From the NCBI GenBank assembly GCA_024518585.1, contig JANIHI010000015.1:1-38340 (forward strand): a stretch of 38,340 bases of DNA. The letters run 5' to 3'. Position 1 is the first letter of the stretch. The number at the start of each line of letters is the position of its first letter. Shown here piece after piece: positions 7,386-38,192 of this stretch. This stretch comes from Methanolinea sp. GTDB lineage: Archaea; Halobacteriota; Methanomicrobia; Methanomicrobiales; Methanospirillaceae. The notes beneath the pieces were generated by a model. It ran no database searches and was not told where the DNA came from. It saw only the letters and a program-made list of their open reading frames with translations. A program made the translations under genes and the position numbers.

Positions 7386-8891
7386 ATGGGCCGGAAAGGA
7401 CAATTAAAGGGACCTCAAAAGAAAGAGGATGATTCCGAGGTGACAAAGGCACGTGATGAGAGCCCGGCTGGAATTATCTCTTCGATAGGAAGATCAGTTC
7501 GGGGTGATGTGTGGGTCCAGCTTTTGGTCGGGCTGACCGTTATTGGAGCGATAATTCGTTTCTACCACCTTGATTTCAATTCTCTCTGGCTGGATGAGGC
7601 CTTCACGTACGATGCGTCGAAAGGTTCTCTCATGGAGATATGGAATACAATGGAGGTTGGGGATTTCCATCCCCCGCTCTTCCACTGGATAGAACACTTC
7701 ATGCTGGCATTCGGACATTCTGAATTCGTCCTCCGCTTTATTCCGGCTCTTCTTGGTGTATGCACCATCCCACTCTTTTTCTTCGTGGGAAAGGAACTCG
7801 TGGATGAACGAATAGGTGTCCTTTCAGCCACTTTACTCACCTTTTCCCCATTTCACATTTATTACTCCCAGGAAGCGTATTCATACTCTGCTGTTCTTTT
7901 CACCTTTTCCCTGGTGCTTTATTGCTATTTAAGAGCGCTTCGAACGAGGGAGCGGACTTACTGGCTCCTCTGTGGTGTTTTCTCGGCATTATCGTTTTGG
8001 ATCCATTTCTATACCCTGATTCCGGTTTTCTTCGTATATCTTCATGCACTGATGGGTGTATTTCCGGAACGGAGAAAAGGTTGGGAAGCATTTAAAAATA
8101 TTTTCTATTCCGTAATAACCATCATCATCCTCATCTCACCATTGATTCCAATCGTTATCCAGCGCTACCTTTCCCTTACAGCCAGGCCCCCAACCTATGG
8201 GGTACTGGGACCTGCGTTAATCAGTGAATCCTTCATCCGTTTCTCGGCATTTTCCCTTCCAGTTACCATTCTGTTCGTTCTCCTTTTCGTGGCAGGAACC
8301 CTGTACCTGTACAGGGTAAACAGACATCTTTTCTGGCTCTGGGTCATGATGATATCCCTTCCCCTGCTCCTTTCCGTAATTCTGTCTTCAAAGATGACGA
8401 TGAACCCGCGGTATCTTATCTTTCTCCTTACCTTTTTTTATCCGGGTATTGCCTGTTCATATCTCTGGGTGAGACAGTATTCAGCCAGACAATGGATTGT
8501 ACTCGTATTCATTGCAGCATTCATTCTTCTCAATACGCCAACCCTGGTCTCTTATTACCAGGGATACAGCAAGGAGAACTGGCGGGGTCTTGCAACAATC
8601 ATGGAGACGAATACCATGCCCGGCGACTCCATCATCCTGGTACCAGGATACCTCGAGATGCCATTTACCTACTATTATAACAATTCCTCGGACCAGACGA
8701 GGGTATTTGGTGCCGCAAGCGTCGCCGAACTGGAAAATATCGCCCGTTTGCACGGTGAGAACAGGACCTTCTACATTGTGACAGGGGATATCATGGCCGC
8801 GAACCCTGAAGGGGATGTTATACGATGGCTAGAGAAAAATACGTCATATAAAGGAGAGTACACAAACATCTATATTTTTTCTTCACCTTGA
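7386..8891 (+). CDS. GT-C glycosyltransferase of the GT39/ArnT-like family
   Basis: A 501-residue integral membrane enzyme expected to use a polyprenyl-phosphate sugar and to act at the outer face of the membrane. The N-terminus is cytoplasmic and hydrophilic to about residue 45, followed by some ten membrane spans. The first outer loop carries LWLDEAFTYD (D70, E71), the acidic catalytic motif of GT-C enzymes; HPPLFHW and FHIYYSQEAYSY follow, also hallmark positions. The C-terminal soluble part has VPGYLEMPFTYYYNNSS. It is a paralogue of the gene at 8959-10485, which it faces tail to tail. Donor and acceptor are unknown. Confidence 0.85.
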   Translation: MGRKGQLKGPQKKEDDSEVTKARDESPAGIISSIGRSVRGDVWVQLLVGLTVIGAIIRFYHLDFNSLWLDEAFTYDASKGSLMEIWNTMEVGDFHPPLFHWIEHFMLAFGHSEFVLRFIPALLGVCTIPLFFFVGKELVDERIGVLSATLLTFSPFHIYYSQEAYSYSAVLFTFSLVLYCYLRALRTRERTYWLLCGVFSALSFWIHFYTLIPVFFVYLHALMGVFPERRKGWEAFKNIFYSVITIIILISPLIPIVIQRYLSLTARPPTYGVLGPALISESFIRFSAFSLPVTILFVLLFVAGTLYLYRVNRHLFWLWVMMISLPLLLSVILSSKMTMNPRYLIFLLTFFYPGIACSYLWVRQYSARQWIVLVFIAAFILLNTPTLVSYYQGYSKENWRGLATIMETNTMPGDSIILVPGYLEMPFTYYYNNSSDQTRVFGAASVAELENIARLHGENRTFYIVTGDIMAANPEGDVIRWLEKNTSYKGEYTNIYIFSSP

Positions 8892-8958
8892 ATGTAAAAC
8901 GAAATTTGAAAAAAATGGCTAATATATACTATTTCAAATGTAATTACCCGATTAATCA

Positions 8959-10485
8959 TCAGTTTATAGTAAAAATATGCACCCCCCAGTAGGAACCCCC
9001 GTACCGAGCGTGCTCCTTTAACCATTGGACTGCTTTCCCGGAGGGGTCTGCTGCCGTCAAGTCGTTGGTGAATAAGATAATTACTTTTTCATCCCTTCTC
9101 TGTCCAAAATGAATATCAAGCTCTTCTGCACTGGATACCCCTATCTCGGTTGTCATATCAGTGGTATTATTGTAATAAAAGTCAAAAGGTGCGGTTAAAT
9201 ACCCTGGCATGAGGACAACAATATCGCCGGGCGAAGTATTTTGAGCAATCATTGTAGATACGGATCTCCAATCTGCCTTGTATCCTGCGTTGTAATGGTT
9301 TACCAAACCAGGCATGCTCACGACGAATGCAAGCACAATATACATATAAATAATCCTTCTGTCATGTTTGAATCCTGCAGGAAAGAGATAAGACGATGCT
9401 ATTCCAATAAAAAAAATGGGAAGAATGCCGATAAGATACCGCGGAGCTAATGGCATCAAATAGGAAAGTCCCAGGCTTGCTGCAAATGTCAGAATTGTAA
9501 GCCAGATAAAAAGGATACAGGTATCTGACCTGATGAGCAGGATTCTATACATGCCGATGAGAAAAAGAACAATAAATACGAGTGCAATAGGGACAGAATA
9601 GCCGGAGAACTGTTTGAAAGTAATAGTGAAGACATCAAGGCCTCGCATTCCCCATGTGGGCGCAACTGAAACACGGTCAATCAGTATCGTCCAGATTATT
9701 GCCAGGAGCGGGAGAGAGAGCAAAATGAAAAGTGCAAATGAACAACCTAGTCCCTTCAATTTTTTTAGATCCAGATTCGTTTTCAATATCCAGGCAAAAT
9801 AATAGAGATACAGGCCTGCAACGATAATGATGGAATAGAATTGTGTCCAGAAGGCCAGTGCAGAAAAAATGCCAAATATAATCCACCAAATTATTTGCTC
9901 TTTCTTCCATGCCCAATAGAAGAAGAGCATGGCAAGCGAAAGAAACAGGAGCATGAGTGAGTACATCCTCGCCTCCTGGGAATAAAAGAGATGAAAAGGT
10001 GAGAATGCGAGGAACGCCGCTGCAATAATACCGGCATTCCTATCGACTGCTTCGCTGCCCAGAAAGTATATGACCGGAACGGTCATTATCCCAAAAATTG
10101 CAGGCAGAAAACGGAGTGTTGTTTCATTGTGCCCAAACACAAGGATAGGGTGCTCGAGCCAGTAAAAAAGCGGAGGGTGCGGTTCCCCTCCAGCACTGAT
10201 CAAAGTCCAGTATTCCATGAATGGGTTGATTGAAAACCGGTAGGTCAATGCCTCATCAAGCCATAATGAAGCAAGACCAAGGGAGAAAAATCGTAATATT
10301 GCAGCGATTACAGTCAAAACCAAAAGTATCTGGATATACCTGCTATGGAATAGAACACCTTTTACTGTCGCTATCAAACCCAAATGGCCTTTTTTTAGAG
10401 GAACGGGAGATAATCCGTTAAGGTCAACGACGGATAGATTCCCATTTTTTACTTTTGACCTCTTTTTATGCTCACCCGCCTGCAT
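8959..10485 (-). CDS. GT-C glycosyltransferase of the GT39/ArnT-like family, paralogue of the facing gene
   Basis: 508 residues with the same layout as its neighbour: a basic hydrophilic N-terminus (about 50 residues), then LWLDEALTYR, PHPPLFYWLEHP and FHLFYSQEARMYS, some ten membrane spans, and a C-terminal domain with MPGYLTAPFDFYYNNTT. It should transfer a sugar from a lipid carrier at the outer face of the membrane. The stop codons of the two paralogues are separated by 67 bp with convergent orientation. The upstream gene on the same strand ends 21 bp before this start, so a shared transcript is possible although the functions look unrelated. Confidence 0.85.
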   Translation of the reverse strand: MQAGEHKKRSKVKNGNLSVVDLNGLSPVPLKKGHLGLIATVKGVLFHSRYIQILLVLTVIAAILRFFSLGLASLWLDEALTYRFSINPFMEYWTLISAGGEPHPPLFYWLEHPILVFGHNETTLRFLPAIFGIMTVPVIYFLGSEAVDRNAGIIAAAFLAFSPFHLFYSQEARMYSLMLLFLSLAMLFFYWAWKKEQIIWWIIFGIFSALAFWTQFYSIIIVAGLYLYYFAWILKTNLDLKKLKGLGCSFALFILLSLPLLAIIWTILIDRVSVAPTWGMRGLDVFTITFKQFSGYSVPIALVFIVLFLIGMYRILLIRSDTCILFIWLTILTFAASLGLSYLMPLAPRYLIGILPIFFIGIASSYLFPAGFKHDRRIIYMYIVLAFVVSMPGLVNHYNAGYKADWRSVSTMIAQNTSPGDIVVLMPGYLTAPFDFYYNNTTDMTTEIGVSSAEELDIHFGQRRDEKVIILFTNDLTAADPSGKAVQWLKEHARYGGSYWGVHIFTIN

Positions 10486-20669: not shown

Positions 20670-20688
20670 TGGAGTGGAAATAAAGGGG
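20670..20688 (+). promoter_or_regulatory. ORB-like sequence before hel308
   Basis: TGGAGTGGAAATAAAGGGG matches the strongest origin box of this window (25009-25027) at 16 of 19 positions. A half-match, TTCCAGTGGAGATGG, begins at 20605. The AAGGGG end also serves as the ribosome-binding site for the ATG at 20695, so part of the likeness may be due to that. Orc1 binding here is a hypothesis. Confidence 0.35.
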
Positions 20689-20694
20689 TTATGA

Positions 20695-22848
20695 ATGAGA
20701 GTCGGAGATCTCCCCCTTCCTGCCTACCTTCATGAGATCTATGCGAACCTTGGGATAGATACGCTCTATCCTCCCCAGGCTGAGTGTGTGGAGAAGGGCC
20801 TTTTCGAGGGGAAAAACCTCCTTGTTGCAGTCCCGACCGCAAGCGGAAAGACGCTCATCGCCGAAATGGCTATGCATTACCATGTCTCCCGGGGAGGGAA
20901 ATGCCTCTACATCGTCCCCCTTAAGGCACTTGCGAGTGAAAAATACGAGGATTTTTCGCGCAAAAAGGTGAAGGTCGGGATCTCCACCGGTGATTTTGAC
21001 AGGCGGGACGAGAACCTGGGGAGATATGATATCATCGTGGCAACGAGCGAGAAGGTTGACTCTCTCCTTCGCAACCGGGCACCCTGGCTCCCGGATATCA
21101 CGCTGCTGGTCGTGGACGAAGTCCACCTGCTCGACTCCACGGATCGGGGCCCGACACTGGAGATGGTCATGACAAAGATGCGGGCAAAAATACCACGGCT
21201 CCAGGTCATTGCTCTCTCGGCAACCATCGGAAACCCCCGGGTACTTGCCGGGTGGCTCGATGCCGGTGTAGTTACCGGGACCTGGAGACCTGTCGACCTG
21301 CGGCAGGGCGTTTACCTGAACGGTGAGATCTCCTTTGGCAATGGTATCCGAAAAGTCCCCCCTGTCTCCCGGACCGAGGATGTCAACCTCCTCCTTGACA
21401 CCGTTGGTGAGGGGGGTCAGTGCCTCGTCTTTGTCTCCTCGCGGAAGAATGCCGAAGCGTTTGCCAAGAGGGCTGCAAAGGCCCTCACGTGTTCAGATCC
21501 CGGTCTCCTTGAATGCGCATCCCGTTTGAAGAAGATTGCGGTGACGGAGACCGAGCAGGCCCTGGCGGGGTGTGTTGCCATGGGTTCAGCCTTTCACCAC
21601 GCCGGCCTCTCGCGGGAAGCCCGGGGAATTGTCGAAGATGCGTTCCGGAAAGGCCTTGTCAAGTGCATAGCATCCACCCCGACCCTTGCTGCCGGACTCA
21701 ACCTGCCTGCCCGGCGGGTCGTTATCAGGGACTACCGACGCTACGAAGCCGGCATGGGGATGGTTCCCATTCCCGCCCGTGAATATCACCAGATGGCGGG
21801 GAGGGCCGGCAGGCCGGGTCTGGACCCGTATGGGGAGGCTGTCCTCATCGCAAAGGACGAGGCCGAGGCACAGAACCTCCAGGAGTTTTACATCAATGCC
21901 CAGCCTGAAGACGTCCACTCGCAGTGTGCCGATGAATCTGTCCTCCTCACCCACGTCCTCTCCCTCGTTGCATCAGGGTTTGCAAGGACATACGAGGGTC
22001 TGCTTGAATTCCTTGACGGGACACTGTACTGTTACCAGCACCAGGGGGGGCGAATCCTTGAGACCGTTACCCGACGGGCACTCCAGTTCCTCGAGAATGC
22101 CGAGATGGTGACGTCCCTGGACGGTCACCTCTCCGCGACGGAATATGGCCACCTTGTCTCTCTCCTCTACATAGACCCCCGGGGAGCGGAGATGATCGTC
22201 AAAACACTCTCCTCTGCACGGGAATATTCCGACATGGGACTCCTCCACCTCGTCTGCAGCACGCCGGACATGTTCACCCTCTACATCTCGAACAGGGACC
22301 TCTATTACCTCGAGCGGTTCGTCCTCGAACACGAGGACGAGCTGTGGACACCCCTCTCCATCGGCGACGAGGAGGAGTTCTTCCGGGCCCTCAAGACGGC
22401 ACTTGTCCTCCGGGACTGGGGGAATGAAGTCCCTGTCGAGACGGTGTGCGAGCGCTATTCCATCGGGACGGGTGACGTGCACGCCCTCGTCGAAAGCAGC
22501 AACTGGCTCCTTCATGCATCGAGCCGCCTTGCAGCACTGTATGCCCCCCGGTATGCTCCTGCAGTCAGGGAACTGGAGGTATGCATCAAGCATGGCGTCA
22601 GGAGGGAGCTCCTGCCCCTGGTCAGGATCCGGAACATTGGCCGGGTCAGGGCACGGAGCCTCTACGCGAACGGTATAACAACCCCCGAGGAGCTCCGGTC
22701 TGCAGATCCTGTAAAACTTGCATCCATCCTCGGCCGCGGAGTGGCCCAGTCCGTTGTAAAACAGCTGGATGCCGATATCCGTGAAGATGATGAGGATGAG
22801 GACCCTGGCGGGCAGTCCCGGCTCGATTCCTTTTCCGGAGGGGTATGA
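20695..22848 (+). CDS. hel308: Hel308-type Ski2-like DNA helicase
   Basis: A 717-residue superfamily 2 helicase that unwinds lagging-strand-type forks and helps restart stalled replication. Motifs in order are: Q-motif region LYPPQAECV, motif I PTASGKT (T48-T53), motif II DEVH (141-144), motif [12 protein letters not shown], and motif [13 protein letters not shown]. They are followed by winged-helix, ratchet and helix-hairpin-helix regions ([20 protein letters not shown]). The extreme C-terminus, [11 protein letters not shown] (Q707, L710, F713), looks like a PCNA-interacting box. Length is normal for Hel308. The TGA overlaps the ATG of cgi121 (ATGA). Confidence 0.93.
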
Positions 22849-23449: not shown

Positions 23450-23980
23450 CTATTCCGCCTTTTTCTTATCGTCCGCCGGTGGTTTGCCCTGGACGTGAGA
23501 CAGGATATGGCGCAATTCGGGAATGATGATCTCCTTCATGGCAAGCGAAACGGCAGGTGTTGAGCCGGGGATGCAGAAAATTACCCCTCCTCCGCATGTC
23601 CCGGCAATTGCCCGGGAAAGGATGGTCGCCGTCCCTATATCCTGGAGACCCTTGAGCCGGAAAATTTCTCCAAATCCCTCTATCCTCTTCTCGAGGAGTG
23701 GCGCAACAGCCTCGATTGTGCAGTCATCAGGAGAAAGCCCTGTGCCGCCGTTCATGATAATACAGTTGCAGTCTTTCAAAGCCTGGAAGAGCTGCCGGCG
23801 GATCTCTTCGACAGAATCCTTCACGATTCCATAGGAAAGGACGGGTATGTGGTCTTCTTCCAGGAACCGGATGATTGTCTTCCCGCTCGTGTCTGTCTCC
23901 ATCGTCCGTGAGCTTGATATGGTGATGACGGCAGCACGGATATCGACGGGTTTTTCATGGTGCGATTTCATCACTCTCAT
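23450..23980 (-). CDS. moaB: MoaB/MogA-type molybdenum cofactor protein
   Basis: A 176-residue MoaB-family protein that adenylylates molybdopterin on the way to Mo/W cofactor. It is relevant in a methanogen because formylmethanofuran dehydrogenase uses this cofactor. The fold is seen as AAVITISSSRT, the loop NCIIMNGGTGLSPDD, and FCIPGSTPAVSLAMKEIIIPEL. I place the start at the ATG at 23980, which has GGAGTG upstream at good spacing. An in-frame ATG at 24037 would add 19 hydrophobic residues (LFHSLIGIIYSFWSG) that do not belong to the family. Confidence 0.88.
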   Translation of the reverse strand: MRVMKSHHEKPVDIRAAVITISSSRTMETDTSGKTIIRFLEEDHIPVLSYGIVKDSVEEIRRQLFQALKDCNCIIMNGGTGLSPDDCTIEAVAPLLEKRIEGFGEIFRLKGLQDIGTATILSRAIAGTCGGGVIFCIPGSTPAVSLAMKEIIIPELRHILSHVQGKPPADDKKKAE

Positions 23981-24050
23981 TGTACCACTCCAGAAAGAAT
24001 AAATAATCCCAATAAGCGAATGAAAGAGGGTTATCATCCGGGAAAATGCA

Positions 24051-24096
24051 TCATGACAATGTTTTCCCAGGTTTCATGACAATGTTTTCCCAGGTT
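24051..24096. repeat. Perfect 23-bp tandem duplication at the left edge of the origin
   Basis: Two identical 23-bp units at 24051-24073 and 24074-24096, each containing ACAATGTTTTCCCAGG. They lie just upstream of the leftmost ORB and just before the 5' end of moaB. Confidence 0.9.
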
Positions 24097-24109
24097 CTAT
24101 CTTGGATAA

Positions 24110-24128
24110 CCCTATCATTTCCACTGGA
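24110..24128 (-). promoter_or_regulatory. Origin recognition box 1
   Basis: Minus-strand sequence TCCAGTGGAAATGATAGGG. The dyad core TCCAGTGGAAA is complete and the G-run is shortened; 15 of 19 positions match the box at 25009. Confidence 0.65.
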
Positions 24129-24460
24129 AGTGGGAAGACAAGTCGGTTGAAAAGAGCCTGTGCAGTTGTTCTATGAAGGGAAGAGTCTCCACTGACAGGT
24201 GATTGGGATTATACCCTCTTCGTCATTTCAGGTGGGTAAGGTGTATGAATGGGTTATAGCCTCTCTCTGGATTGAGCTGGTTAATCCAAAAGAAATCGAC
24301 TTAATGCGAAATGAATGGTGAAACCGCTGCCTGGGCTCCCTTTTGGGGGCTCCAGAACAATCCTCATGTGGAAGTGCGGGAGCGAGGCTGCCCCCGCTTT
24401 GGTTCCTATCCATCCACTCAAAATAGAGAAGAGGCGGATTATAGATGGAAGGAGATGGAA

Positions 24461-24479
24461 CCCCTTTATTTCCATTGGA
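24461..24479 (-). promoter_or_regulatory. Origin recognition box 2
   Basis: Minus-strand sequence TCCAATGGAAATAAAGGGG, 17 of 19 positions matching the box at 25009, with a complete G-run. It lies on the left side of the AT-rich core. Confidence 0.8.
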
Positions 24480-24533
24480 GAGGGGGGATGGGATGGGGTG
24501 ATCCTGGGCTTCGTGTTCACGGTGCAGAGTGGC

Positions 24534-24569
24534 TTGAGATTATTGGTCATGTTGAGATTATTGGTCATG
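24534..24569. repeat. Perfect 18-bp tandem duplication in the origin
   Basis: TTGAGATTATTGGTCATG occurs twice in tandem (24534-24551, 24552-24569) at the left border of the AT-rich core. Its place at the start of the likely unwinding element makes it a candidate initiator-contact or duplex-opening repeat. Confidence 0.9.
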
Positions 24570-24875
24570 AATTCAAAATTATCGTGGATACACCTGGTAA
24601 TTTTTGATATGTTTTGGTATTGCAATGGTGATTTTTCCTGGCTGATCTCGTAATTTCGGTATTGTTTTTACATTTAAGTCCCGTTATTTTTGCTGAGATA
24701 TTGTAATTTGGTTTTTCCTGCATTTTATGGCATTATCCTCTTATCGAATATGTGGTATATCGTGGACCCGTGTCTCCTGAATTCAATTCGGAATTCTTTT
24801 ATCTTCAAAGTTCAAAACAGAACCAAGGCTGTTTTACCATTACTTAACTCCACAAAAAGGAGTTCTCCCCCTATC

Positions 24876-24894
24876 TCCAGGCGAAACAAAGGGC
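24876..24894 (+). promoter_or_regulatory. Origin recognition box 3
   Basis: TCCAGGCGAAACAAAGGGC, 16 of 19 positions matching the box at 25009. The GAAACAAAGGG part is intact and the dyad centre is altered. Confidence 0.65.
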
Positions 24895-25008
24895 TCCCCC
24901 ACCTCATTTTCAACTATAAAAAATCAAAAGGAAACTTTGGTCTTTCACTTGCAAACAATTTTCTCTAATAACGTATAATTTGTCATTATCTTGTATTAAA
25001 ATAGCCTC

Positions 25009-25027
25009 TCCAGTGGAAACAAAGGGG
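25009..25027 (+). promoter_or_regulatory. Origin recognition box 4 (canonical)
   Basis: TCCAGTGGAAACAAAGGGG agrees with the archaeal mini-ORB/ORB core as I know it: a short dyad followed by a G-run. It ends 71 bp before the orc1/cdc6 start, next to the promoter, so Orc1 binding could both mark the origin and repress its own gene. Confidence 0.88.
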
Positions 25028-25048
25028 TTTATATCCTGTTCAAACAGG
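25028..25048 (+). promoter_or_regulatory. orc1/cdc6 promoter with a perfect dyad
   Basis: TTTATAT (25028-25034) is a TATA candidate directly behind the canonical ORB. It is followed by the perfect inverted repeat CCTGTTCAAACAGG (25035-25048), placed between the TATA box and the probable RNA start, where a repressor would block transcription. Confidence 0.45.
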
Positions 25049-25098
25049 TGTCTTTTTGAGGTAAGGGATGTATATGATTAACTCCCAGGGGGTCCGGG

Positions 25099-26382
25099 AT
25101 GTCAGACAACCAGAGTGCAGCAATAGGACTATTCAAAAAATACCTTGAGACAAATAAGATATTCAAGAACAGGGAAGTGCTGCGCCACTCCTACAGGCCC
25201 CAGATCCTTCCCCACCGGCGACCCCAGATCGACCAGGTCGCGGCAATCCTTGCACCGGCGCTCCGGACCGAAACCCCTTCCAACATCCTCATTTATGGCA
25301 AGACAGGGACAGGGAAAACGGCGGTTGTCCGGTACGTCGGGTCAGAACTCGAGACGGCCAGCGTCCACATGGGGACTGTCTGCCGCGTCGTTCACCTCAA
25401 CTGCGAAGTGATAGATACACAGTACAGGGTCCTTGCCCAGATCTCCAAGACGCTCCTTGGAGAGGATGAAACACCGAGTGATAAGGCACGAATCCATATC
25501 CCCATGACAGGCTGGCCAACTGACCAGGTCTACATGGAGCTCAAGAACCAGCTCGAGGCACTGGGAGGAGTCCTCATCATCGTCCTCGACGAAATTGACA
25601 AACTGGTCAAGAAGAGCGGGGACGAAACCCTCTACAACCTGTCCCGGATCAATTCTGACCTGAAAAGCTCAAAAGTCAGCATGATCGGCATCTCCAACGA
25701 TCTCTCTTTCAAGGATTTCCTGGACCCTAGGGTCCTCTCCTCCCTCTCCGAAGAGGAACTCGTCTTCCCCCCCTACAATGCCCCCCAGCTGTGTGACATT
25801 CTCCGGCAGCGCGCCGAGATGGCGTTTCTGGACGGTGTACTGGATGACGGTGTCATCCCCCTGTGCGCGGCACTCGCAGCCCAGGAACACGGGGATGCAC
25901 GGAGAGCACTTGACCTCCTCCGCGTCTCTGGCGAAATTGCCGACCGGGAAGAGGCCGACCGCGTCCTGGAAAGTCATGTGAAGATGGCCCAGGCAAAGAT
26001 CGAGGCAGATTCAATGATCGAGTGCATTGCCACCCTGCCGACCCAGAGCAAGGTGGTTCTCTATGCCATGCTCCTTCTCGACCAGATGGGCCAGACCATC
26101 TTCACGAGCGGTGAGGTGAGCAGGATTTACAAGGAAATTGCGCCCTCGCTTGACCTCGATGTCCTCACGCACCGGCGCATCACAGACCTCATCTCCGAGT
26201 TGAACATGCTCGGCGTGATCAACACCCGTGTCGTGAGCCGTGGCCGCTATGGCAGGACAAAAGAGATGTGGTTTGATACAAATACCCGTAAGATATGGGA
26301 AGTCATCACGTCAGATGCCCGCTTGAGTACCCAGGGTATAGCCGAGAGGGACGTCCAGTGGTGCCGATCCCTATTCAGGTGA
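25099..26382 (+). CDS. cdc6: Orc1/Cdc6 replication initiator
   Basis: A 427-residue archaeal initiator that binds ORBs, opens the origin and loads MCM. Walker A is GKTGTGKT (67-74), Walker B is VLDEID (162-167), sensor 1 is in MIGISNDLSFKD and sensor 2 is in HGDARRALDLLR. A C-terminal winged helix follows from about 305 (LPTQSKVVLYAMLLLDQMG), with the wing at VVSRGRYGRTKEMW. The adjacent ORB-bearing region supports its identity as the initiator of this origin. It is followed after 7 bp by an Lrp/AsnC regulator gene, suggesting a shared transcript. Confidence 0.95.
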   Translation: MSDNQSAAIGLFKKYLETNKIFKNREVLRHSYRPQILPHRRPQIDQVAAILAPALRTETPSNILIYGKTGTGKTAVVRYVGSELETASVHMGTVCRVVHLNCEVIDTQYRVLAQISKTLLGEDETPSDKARIHIPMTGWPTDQVYMELKNQLEALGGVLIIVLDEIDKLVKKSGDETLYNLSRINSDLKSSKVSMIGISNDLSFKDFLDPRVLSSLSEEELVFPPYNAPQLCDILRQRAEMAFLDGVLDDGVIPLCAALAAQEHGDARRALDLLRVSGEIADREEADRVLESHVKMAQAKIEADSMIECIATLPTQSKVVLYAMLLLDQMGQTIFTSGEVSRIYKEIAPSLDLDVLTHRRITDLISELNMLGVINTRVVSRGRYGRTKEMWFDTNTRKIWEVITSDARLSTQGIAERDVQWCRSLFR

Positions 26383-36800: not shown

Positions 36801-37059
36801 CTTGACTTGCATCGGTATTCCAGCACTCCTGGTAAGTTTTTGCGGGAGATTCAGGACTATCAAGCTGGCACACCATCATACATATATCACAGGGACTTGC
36901 CCCAGTCATTGGTAATAAAAGAGTTATAAACATTAAAACAAAAAAAATAATCTTGAAATCAGACAAAATATTGCATGGTTTGGGGGATAAAGAATAACAC
37001 GGCACTTTTTCAATGGCACTTGCTTTTTGGCACCGAACCTCACGTTTTATTAAGATCAT
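33865..37059 (-). CDS. Large exported PKD-domain protein with a long C-terminal region (operon gene 2)
   Basis: 1064 residues. A long N-region is followed by a signal/anchor segment at 35-53 (IIFFVLMFITLLLPMTGAS), then a six-cysteine stretch (C57, C60, C64, C79, C89, C93), an Ig-like domain (about 105-208), PKD domains at about 216-304 (WRWEFGDGA) and 328-406 (HLWDFGDGY), a Gly/Ala-rich hydrophobic span (about 446-473), and a charged coiled-coil-like part (about 483-600). The last about 450 residues are a soluble region with TGHKGATKLPHDHDATAYRY. The layout (exported adhesive repeats, hydrophobic Gly-rich segment, distinct C-terminal domain) resembles surface-anchored effector or polymorphic-toxin proteins, but I recognise no toxin fold. 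ATG 37059 overlaps the previous stop (ATGA). Confidence 0.8.
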   Translation of the reverse strand: MILIKREVRCQKASAIEKVPCYSLSPKPCNILSDFKIIFFVLMFITLLLPMTGASPCDICMMVCQLDSPESPAKTYQECWNTDASQGGCKDWCSGSHDVTTGESETPSLLLELYTNADTFNVEDQYILSISVHDSSTNTPVPGAALSIAYYNQNTGQKVQESGTINSAGKYSRTGTWSEGAIGTITITATATKASYTSRSASTTITVSSGQTAPDILQASFSASPLSGNSPLTVHFTDKSTGNPNKWRWEFGDGAISTSQNPVHTYYALEDILGSADSFTVTLTIWNAQSSDFATKVNYITVYPGSYTIQTGGSTAPPVTPIQPTERPVASFTAFPSSGPAPLRVSFSDTSTGTLSSHLWDFGDGYKSELINPSHTFKEPGTYTVRLTVSGAGGTDIARKTISVSTQIDDNSEKGGDSTEGEGGKSSVDSAPPVNGNDSLTPEDIGAGAVAGIAGVVGGLFALGSGALSGFIPGMRPPPGISPDELRDLQDEYRRLMDNLATERANRDASDQEGIDSGREGIITLMEEEARRRREELESLGALPDYEGRVTEPVGPSTDEKRLHDISHRLDSHSEWIRSSQADLDRIEALYQKFLEIQELQRRARGDSVKWTDGLAEGLKGTFDDLISNVALMGYPEAIFNAIQEAQPQTLGELYSAFLVGIGRNTGDLVNPVNFVPYHEMEAFYKWYSGELDLSWDKAAGLGGSTILKTVSLGHIGKKLGSLLTKTISSPEPSLSKVLDIEQLKKFEAGYMKSASPEALEHIRKTVESGPDGKVVAIGEARKNPALLDAINRDPDLKNSLATFDEQCHAGGKAELTNFVAKEEGVSADSIYVHDYTGHKGATKLPHDHDATAYRYIPKGTEPAPHTTTGFDSTQFKPKGQLVGDGKHYFDFKEQTVKPIEPGQYYESSTPLSSQQAAYNQGYTATAGTKLRPEYVGKITESNVTSHAHPEAYIEGDYSPKQYKIDNPVSRAVENLSKASHGDVKAGEQAVADINRAVYESSKTIRKAIENGTLQNRPESAQHWVNAIQNVLTSGKPVTEIMTDLQALGTSIEGVGQMIKNLNL

Positions 37060-38192
37060 ATTATCTCCCTCTCTTCGCGAATTCGTGCAGGCTGGGCTCT
37101 AAAAAAAGTGAAGAGCATAAAGAAGAGGAAAATTATACTTATAATGGATATTTGAATGAAATAATTCGATGAATTAAAAAATATTGAGATAATGAATCCT
37201 CCAACACCTCCTGTCATTCCAGCAACAGAAAACCAGGTTGCGGCATCACTAATATTTACGGCGAGATGCAGCCCCTTTGCGATATCAGATCCGATTGCCT
37301 GCAGGAAAAGCGCCATCATACTCTCTCTCTGGGCAATCAGCGTGTTCACAAAGAGAAGAATCCACTGGAGACTCACCAGAACGTTGGAAATAATCCCGGC
37401 TACGAGCAGGGCCAGGCATATACCGAGGAGGAAGAGGAGCATGCCCTGGAAGCCGGTCCGGTCAAAGGATTGCCGGATAAATCCGGGGGTTGTCAGTATT
37501 TTCTCTTTGGTTGCGGAAAGCTGGCCATGCCTGACTTTATTGATGAAGGAAATGACAAGACCCACAAGAAGTCCCCAGAAGAGCATACCGGCTGCTTCGT
37601 GACCGGGGAGGATGAGAATGGATGCAATCAAGGGATGAGGGTTCCCGGCGAGGGTATCTTTTTTTACCATCAACATGAGCAGGGTATGAATCCCCCACAC
37701 AGCTGCCATGCTGATAAGCATCAGCGGGAAACTCCTTCGAATACTTTTCGTCATCCCGGTCGCAAGGGTCTTTAGGAGGTTTACTGTCGCAAGACCTGAG
37801 ACGTGGTTTCTTGTGTCAATCCGTGATTGAGTTTCCAGAGACCGACGCGTGTCTCCAGATTTTAACCCCCAATGTCTTTCCCCCCGATCCCCATATTCCA
37901 ATTCGCTGACCCTGGCATGGAGATCCGGGGAAGTCATCTCTCCTTCTTCATATTTCCTCCCTGTATCAGAATATCCCTCCTTTGCAGTGAGCCTTTGAGA
38001 TTCGGTATCAGAGACCCCACCAGGGGTATGTCTCTGGTGTTTTGATGGTGGTGTATCGAGGAATGGATCTGCCGGTATCCATTGGGCCCCGTTCCACATC
38101 AGCCAGGACCCATCTTTCTGATTGATCTGCCACCAGGTACCTCGTTCGTCCCGGACACGAAGTTCAGAGATCTTCCGGGTATAAATATCCAA
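37056..38192 (-). CDS. Polytopic membrane protein with W-rich N-terminal motif (operon gene 1)
   Basis: About 378 residues. The N-terminus has a tryptophan-rich motif, GTWWQINQKDGSWLMWNGAQ then W, similar in look to short WxW-type or DUF2510-like modules seen in membrane-protein tails. A charged linker follows to about residue 130, then about six or seven membrane spans (from RSFPLMLISMAAVWGIHTLL to FIQISIISIIFLFFMLFTFF). I place the start at TTG 38192, because GGAG lies six bases upstream of it; the TTG at 38198 directly abuts that sequence, and no ATG is available. It is the first gene of the operon and overlaps the PKD gene by 4 bp. Function is unknown; an export or anchoring role for its partner is a guess. 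Confidence 0.7.
   Translation of the reverse strand: MDIYTRKISELRVRDERGTWWQINQKDGSWLMWNGAQWIPADPFLDTPPSKHQRHTPGGVSDTESQRLTAKEGYSDTGRKYEEGEMTSPDLHARVSELEYGDRGERHWGLKSGDTRRSLETQSRIDTRNHVSGLATVNLLKTLATGMTKSIRRSFPLMLISMAAVWGIHTLLMLMVKKDTLAGNPHPLIASILILPGHEAAGMLFWGLLVGLVISFINKVRHGQLSATKEKILTTPGFIRQSFDRTGFQGMLLFLLGICLALLVAGIISNVLVSLQWILLFVNTLIAQRESMMALFLQAIGSDIAKGLHLAVNISDAATWFSVAGMTGGVGGFIISIFFNSSNYFIQISIISIIFLFFMLFTFFRAQPARIREEREII
38180..38188 (+). promoter_or_regulatory. TATA box for the rightmost plus-strand gene
   Basis: TATAAATAT, centre 29 nt before the ATG at 38213, spacing typical of a leaderless archaeal mRNA. It lies inside the first codons of the divergent operon gene 1, so the 5' ends of the two transcripts overlap. 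Confidence 0.5.

Follow-up and report, generated by a model that had tools for sequence, protein, structure and literature searches.

A probable orc1-linked chromosomal replication origin of the oriC1 type in a Methanolinea-like methanogen

The ORB motif given for Methanomicrobia in DoriC / Ori-Finder 2 is TCCA[GC]T[GT]GAAA[CT][AG]A[AT]GGGGT (PMC4164010), and in the experimentally tested Haloarcula oriC1 a G-rich inverted repeat inside the ORBs enhances initiation (PMC3936714). The region described here comes from an uncultured Methanolinea-like genome (1.78 Mb in 27 contigs, 96.5% complete), of which one entire contig, C2, forms the window that we analysed (38,340 bp). Like the Methanomicrobia oriCs (PMC4164010), it carries the box motif in an intergenic position beside orc1/cdc6; nothing essential differs, and it adds a further member to that set. 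As in Haloarcula hispanica oriC1 (PMC3936714), inverted ORBs with outward G-strings enclose an AT-rich core beside cdc6, and an inverted repeat lies just inside an ORB. Unlike that origin, which has two ORBs, the present one has four over ∼900 bp, and its dyad, found at the right-hand ORB alone, is not G-rich and varies in sequence between lineages. Sulfolobus oriC1 shares the opposed ORBs around a duplex-unwinding element (ORB2/ORB3), with one Orc1 expected per ORB (PMC12141716), and Sulfolobus Orc1-1 is the nearest solved homologue of the Orc1 encoded in the window. In contrast to our region, the core of Sulfolobus oriC1 is compact (130 bp) and is accompanied by a ucm/UBP element (PMC12141716); no ucm-like element was identified at the window origin. 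Thermococcales offer a parallel of another kind, an ORB and mini-ORBs in the DP1 gene (PMC2643942), so that an ORB marks a further replication or repair gene close to the origin, but there the box lies in the PolD gene, whereas here it lies in the hel308 leader, just before the start codon.

A first-pass annotation of this DNA had proposed a replication origin between moaB and orc1/cdc6, and box identity, box orientation, linkage to the initiator gene and about 100 related loci support that proposal. The intergenic region is very probably the orc1-linked chromosomal replication origin of this methanogen, whose activity we infer, and it is of the ordinary archaeal oriC1 type. Its features, with the neighbouring genes, are as follows.

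20670-20688, plus strand: ORB-derived box TGGAGTGGAAATAAAGGGG upstream of hel308 (20695-22848), PWM score 24.5
23450-24037, minus strand: moaB-family gene, left boundary of the probable origin
24038-25098: intergenic region, probable origin, 1,061 bp, between moaB (minus) and orc1/cdc6 (plus), gene order kept in relatives
24110-24128, minus strand: ORB L1, outer left, TCCAGTGGAAATGATAGGG, four mismatches to TCCAGTGGAAACAAAGGGG, PWM score 27.3
24461-24479, minus strand: ORB L2, TCCAATGGAAATAAAGGGG, two mismatches to TCCAGTGGAAACAAAGGGG, PWM score 31.1
24534-24569: perfect 18-bp tandem repeat, two copies of TTGAGATTATTGGTCATG
24567-24816: AT-rich core, candidate duplex-unwinding element
24679-24697, minus strand: probable decayed inner left ORB, from the genus alignment, PWM score -3.6
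24779-24796: dyad GAATTC-N6-GAATTC
24846-24864: dyad AACTCC-N7-GGAGTT, 11 bp inside ORB R1
24876-24894, plus strand: ORB R1, TCCAGGCGAAACAAAGGGC, three mismatches to TCCAGTGGAAACAAAGGGG, PWM score 19.4
24924-24942, plus strand: putative relic of a third, degenerate box on the right, from alignment and PWM; congeners carry TCCTRTGGAAAANNNGGT
25009-25028, plus strand: ORB R2, TCCAGTGGAAACAAAGGGGT, no mismatch to TCCAGTGGAAACAAAGGGG over 25009-25027, PWM score 33.4
25028-25036, plus strand: TATA-like element of orc1, TTTATATCC, directly abutting ORB R2
25099-26382, plus strand: orc1/cdc6 initiator gene, 427 aa, AAA+, lid and winged-helix domains

The gene to the right of the gap had been called an initiator, and its product indeed scores above the cut-off of the ORC1-type equivalog model and matches the Cdc6 lid and winged-helix families. 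Its PDB matches are Sulfolobus Orc1-1 (2qby, 2e-107) and Aeropyrum ORC1 (2v1u, 2e-105), and among named records it is closest to those of Methanolinea MAGs (identity up to 94%), which marks the organism as a Methanolinea-like representative of the Methanomicrobiales. It is thus an initiator of the Orc1-1 lineage with both AAA+ and winged-helix domains, and the gap occupies the intergenic position beside it that marks oriC1-type origins. Orc1 is present in 58 of the 61 genomes of the group. At most of the 39 loci that could be oriented, namely those with enough flanking sequence, relatives keep the order rio-hel308-cgi121-moaB(-)-gap-orc1-lrp-aminotransferase, followed mostly by purA-cbiB-pdxS.

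All four boxes have the orientation first described, minus on the left and plus on the right with their G-runs outwards, and they flank the AT-rich element as inverted ORBs do in oriC1-type origins. Scoring with an ORB weight matrix, a check that had been recommended, recovered each of them, with R1 the weak member; close relatives score 22–33 at the same place. The best box, R2, is identical to the ORB that Ori-Finder 2 gives for Methanomicrobia (PMC4164010), and L2 is a near-perfect inverted copy of it over 25 bp; at least two ORBs fit the clade consensus. Sites within three mismatches of TCCAGTGGAAACAAAGGGG number four in the window, compared with 0.03 expected from dinucleotide shuffles; three lie in the gap and one (20670-20688) upstream of hel308. 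Equal density of the motif elsewhere in the genome, named at the outset as evidence to the contrary, was not seen: the generalised box TCCANNGGAAANAAAGGGG has two exact matches in the 1.78 Mb, both in the gap, and its nine matches at up to two mismatches comprise four on C2 and five weak, scattered ones. The usual layout in the genus places left boxes at about -650 and -458 and right boxes at about -221 and -88 from orc1. The inner left box is intact at about -458 in 11 of 12 aligned genus sequences, and the stretch of the window that aligns to it, GTCCCGTTATTTTTGCTGAGA, looks like a probable decayed copy. The spacing of boxes here differs from that of relatives because R1 is weak and this inner left box has decayed, a point against the origin reading.

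Conservation extends well beyond the genus. Across the 39 loci, weight-matrix sites number 118 in 86 kb upstream of orc1 and 12 in 608 kb elsewhere; because part of these loci served to train the matrix, it is the difference between places that carries the information. The exact ORB pattern is matched in 50 of 61 genomes and a reversed control pattern in none of the 61. In 76 named loci the commonest arrangements are -++, --++, ++ and -+; left boxes are minus and right boxes plus almost everywhere, the exceptions being rare near-palindromic pairs that overlap, besides a very small number of other sites. This outward layout is kept in about 100 loci from many genera. Box identity, outward orientation, the place beside the initiator gene and conservation on this scale support an origin bound by Orc1. 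Protein from the adjoining gene would bind the four ORBs, with TCCA-N2-GGAAA read by its winged helix and the G-run by its AAA+ domain. The opposed left and right clusters would position Orc1 so that MCM helicases are loaded between 24480 and 24875, on the AT-rich core, from which the forks would leave. As ORB R2 runs into the TATA-like element of orc1, Orc1 sitting on this box probably also represses its own gene; competition with TBP/TFB is to be expected there, which makes autoregulation likely.

The core itself is less distinctive than the boxes. Its G+C content over 24601-24720, put at about 32% by hand count, is 31.7% by computation (52.8% for the window), and it is T-rich on the plus strand. 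Counting against the origin reading, stretches within 36913-37196 and 8829-8978 of the window form a weaker duplex than the core, and other gaps in the window melt as easily or more so. In the genus alignment the position of the core is not conserved. The 18-bp tandem repeat, which had been listed among the parts of the origin, is perfect as described but has no counterpart in aligned relatives and is therefore not to be counted as one. A second perfect tandem repeat, of 23 bp (TCATGACAATGTTTTCCCAGGTT twice, 24051-24096), lies just upstream of the moaB start.

Both dyads noted between the boxes were found, and the one beside ORB R1 recurs among relatives. Its arms there read AACTTCA/TGAAGTT, ACTACTCT/AGAGTAGT, TCCTCTC/GAGAGGA or ATGATACA/TGTATCAT, with pairing and place kept. 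The arms vary in step (combined p 4e-9; 0.81 for a control segment on the far side of the ORB), and at the same place relatives carry a direct repeat 32–37 bp apart (15 of 35 loci at p<0.05 each; 1 of 35 at a control offset), p-values that are overstated because the sequences are related and the element was first noticed in those same loci. In the window itself this direct repeat was not detected (p 0.59), and a search across the gap found no other iteron family. Dyad and direct repeat are possibly a binding site for a second origin factor. As an origin the region is of an expected kind; what is now available for Methanolinea-like methanogens is an oriC defined precisely and in alignment, and this alignment separates selected features (opposed ORBs, the box-TATA junction and the dyad) from incidental ones such as the tandem repeat. 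The more interesting leads are the dyad, conserved in position, the box-TATA junction and the hel308 leader box.

Because the window contig, at 38 kb, is too short for such an analysis, GC skew was taken from stretches sampled in three closed relatives (G013, G027 and G058) and from a congeneric contig (G021:C2). In G013 the G-rich arc starts somewhere from -97 to -37 kb relative to orc1 (p 0.004 by permutation), and in G027 from -160 to -19 kb (p 0.019), both coarse placements; G058, a point against the origin reading, showed no significant switch (p 0.29). On G021:C2 the cumulative minimum falls in the 90–100 kb bin, ∼10–18 kb from the orc1 start at 107.7 kb. The skew is thus supportive but coarse, with a switch near orc1 in two of three closed relatives.

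The boxes might instead serve mainly as Orc1 operators for transcription of orc1 (and moaB), with replication starting elsewhere. TTTATATCC follows ORB R2 without a gap, 71 bp upstream of the orc1 ATG, so that box and TATA-like element overlap at their junction; this abutment is seen in 11 of 12 genus sequences, and the junction sequence GGGTTTAT occurs in those 11 and in 38 of 101 distinct loci. The related box upstream of hel308 likewise indicates that Orc1 boxes are possible at promoters. Operators alone are nevertheless very unlikely to be the main function, as four opposed boxes over 900 bp around an AT-rich core in about 100 loci go beyond an operator's needs, two relatives show a skew switch close to orc1, and the genome holds no other box cluster. 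That G-rich and AT-rich low-complexity sequence was mistaken for an origin by chance can practically be dismissed: the tandem repeat and the AT content are indeed not special or not conserved, but the shuffle expectation and conservation over many genera refute this explanation.

A genuine origin could also be dormant or secondary, with the main firing at a different locus, such as one dependent on a second Orc1. Such a copy exists (C9:48498-49595, 26% identical), one box in the window has decayed relative to congeners, and Haloferax mediterranei is known to have dormant origins (PMC4595724). When examined as a second origin, however, the C9 copy was rejected, having no ORB upstream and a gap of only ∼60 bp ahead of it; a second ORB cluster is absent from the genome, and the sites at 24038-25098 are strongly conserved. 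We therefore regard dormancy as highly improbable and retain the region as the chromosomal origin.

The box in the hel308 leader lacks the TCC arm, here and in most relatives, and thus does not combine the TCCA-N2-GGAAA dyad with the G-run; by sequence it is ORB-derived and not a full ORB. A complete ORB stands at hel308 in one locus, L153 (TCCAGTGGAAATGAAGGGGT), and the TCC arm is also present in L061 and L158. Of 59 loci, 37 retain the leader box, usually at position -20 or -21 relative to the hel308 start, and control leaders gave none in 157 (rio, cgi121, purA, cbiB and pdxS) and 1 in 72 for lrp. TGGAANNNAAGGGGT-N(1-10)-ATG has 42 matches in the 61 genomes, 16 of which, judged by comparing places, lie at hel308 starts, including that of G050, where hel308 lies ∼20 kb from orc1 on the opposite strand. 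A Shine-Dalgarno function was considered and rejected: in L060 the box is ∼33 bp upstream and a separate GGAGGTG stands beside the start, so ribosome binding does not explain the conservation. An ORB-derived box ahead of this DNA-repair helicase gene may be new; no description of it was found in the part of the Hel308 and 'origin recognition box' literature that is covered here, and its novelty is accordingly provisional. Tentatively, and with slightly more doubt than belief, we propose a joint reading for Methanomicrobiales in which Orc1 would be both initiator and DnaA-like regulator, through the ORB at its own TATA and the box in the hel308 leader, tying expression of a fork-repair helicase to Orc1 level or to fork passage from the origin, with the dyad inside the right ORB as one more origin element, so far undescribed. 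Binding of Orc1 to the box in the hel308 leader, if it occurs, would give archaea an initiator regulon like the one that DnaA has in bacteria.

Solitary ORBs distant from orc1 occur in a few genomes, which counts against the origin reading; these ORBs may be titration sites or relics. Strong matches of this type lie between convergent genes at L240:2903 (G058:C1:3226382) and, in L079 and L080, ∼6.6 kb downstream of the orc1 start; those of G039 and G032 are flanked by pdxT and a convergent phosphoglycerate-mutase-like gene (names from translations). The copies of G058 and of G039/G032, sitting between convergent genes, are therefore not promoters, and stray ORBs do not mark mcm genes either, as the places of MCM do not coincide with them. 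In L056, L057 and L058 a second TCCA-N2-GGAAA dyad without a G-run, resembling a mini-ORB, lies immediately 5' of the orc1 start codon. Sites of the TGGAAGGAAAGGGGTATAAAAGGATG form recur in G004, G019, G027 and G054. TGGAAGNAAAGGGGTATAAAAGGATG-like sites, common to one genus (G004:C1:603077, G027:C1:2518146, G019:C7:112087 and G054:C87:3916), have an ORB-like 3' half that merges into a TATA-like element upstream of a gene other than mcm.
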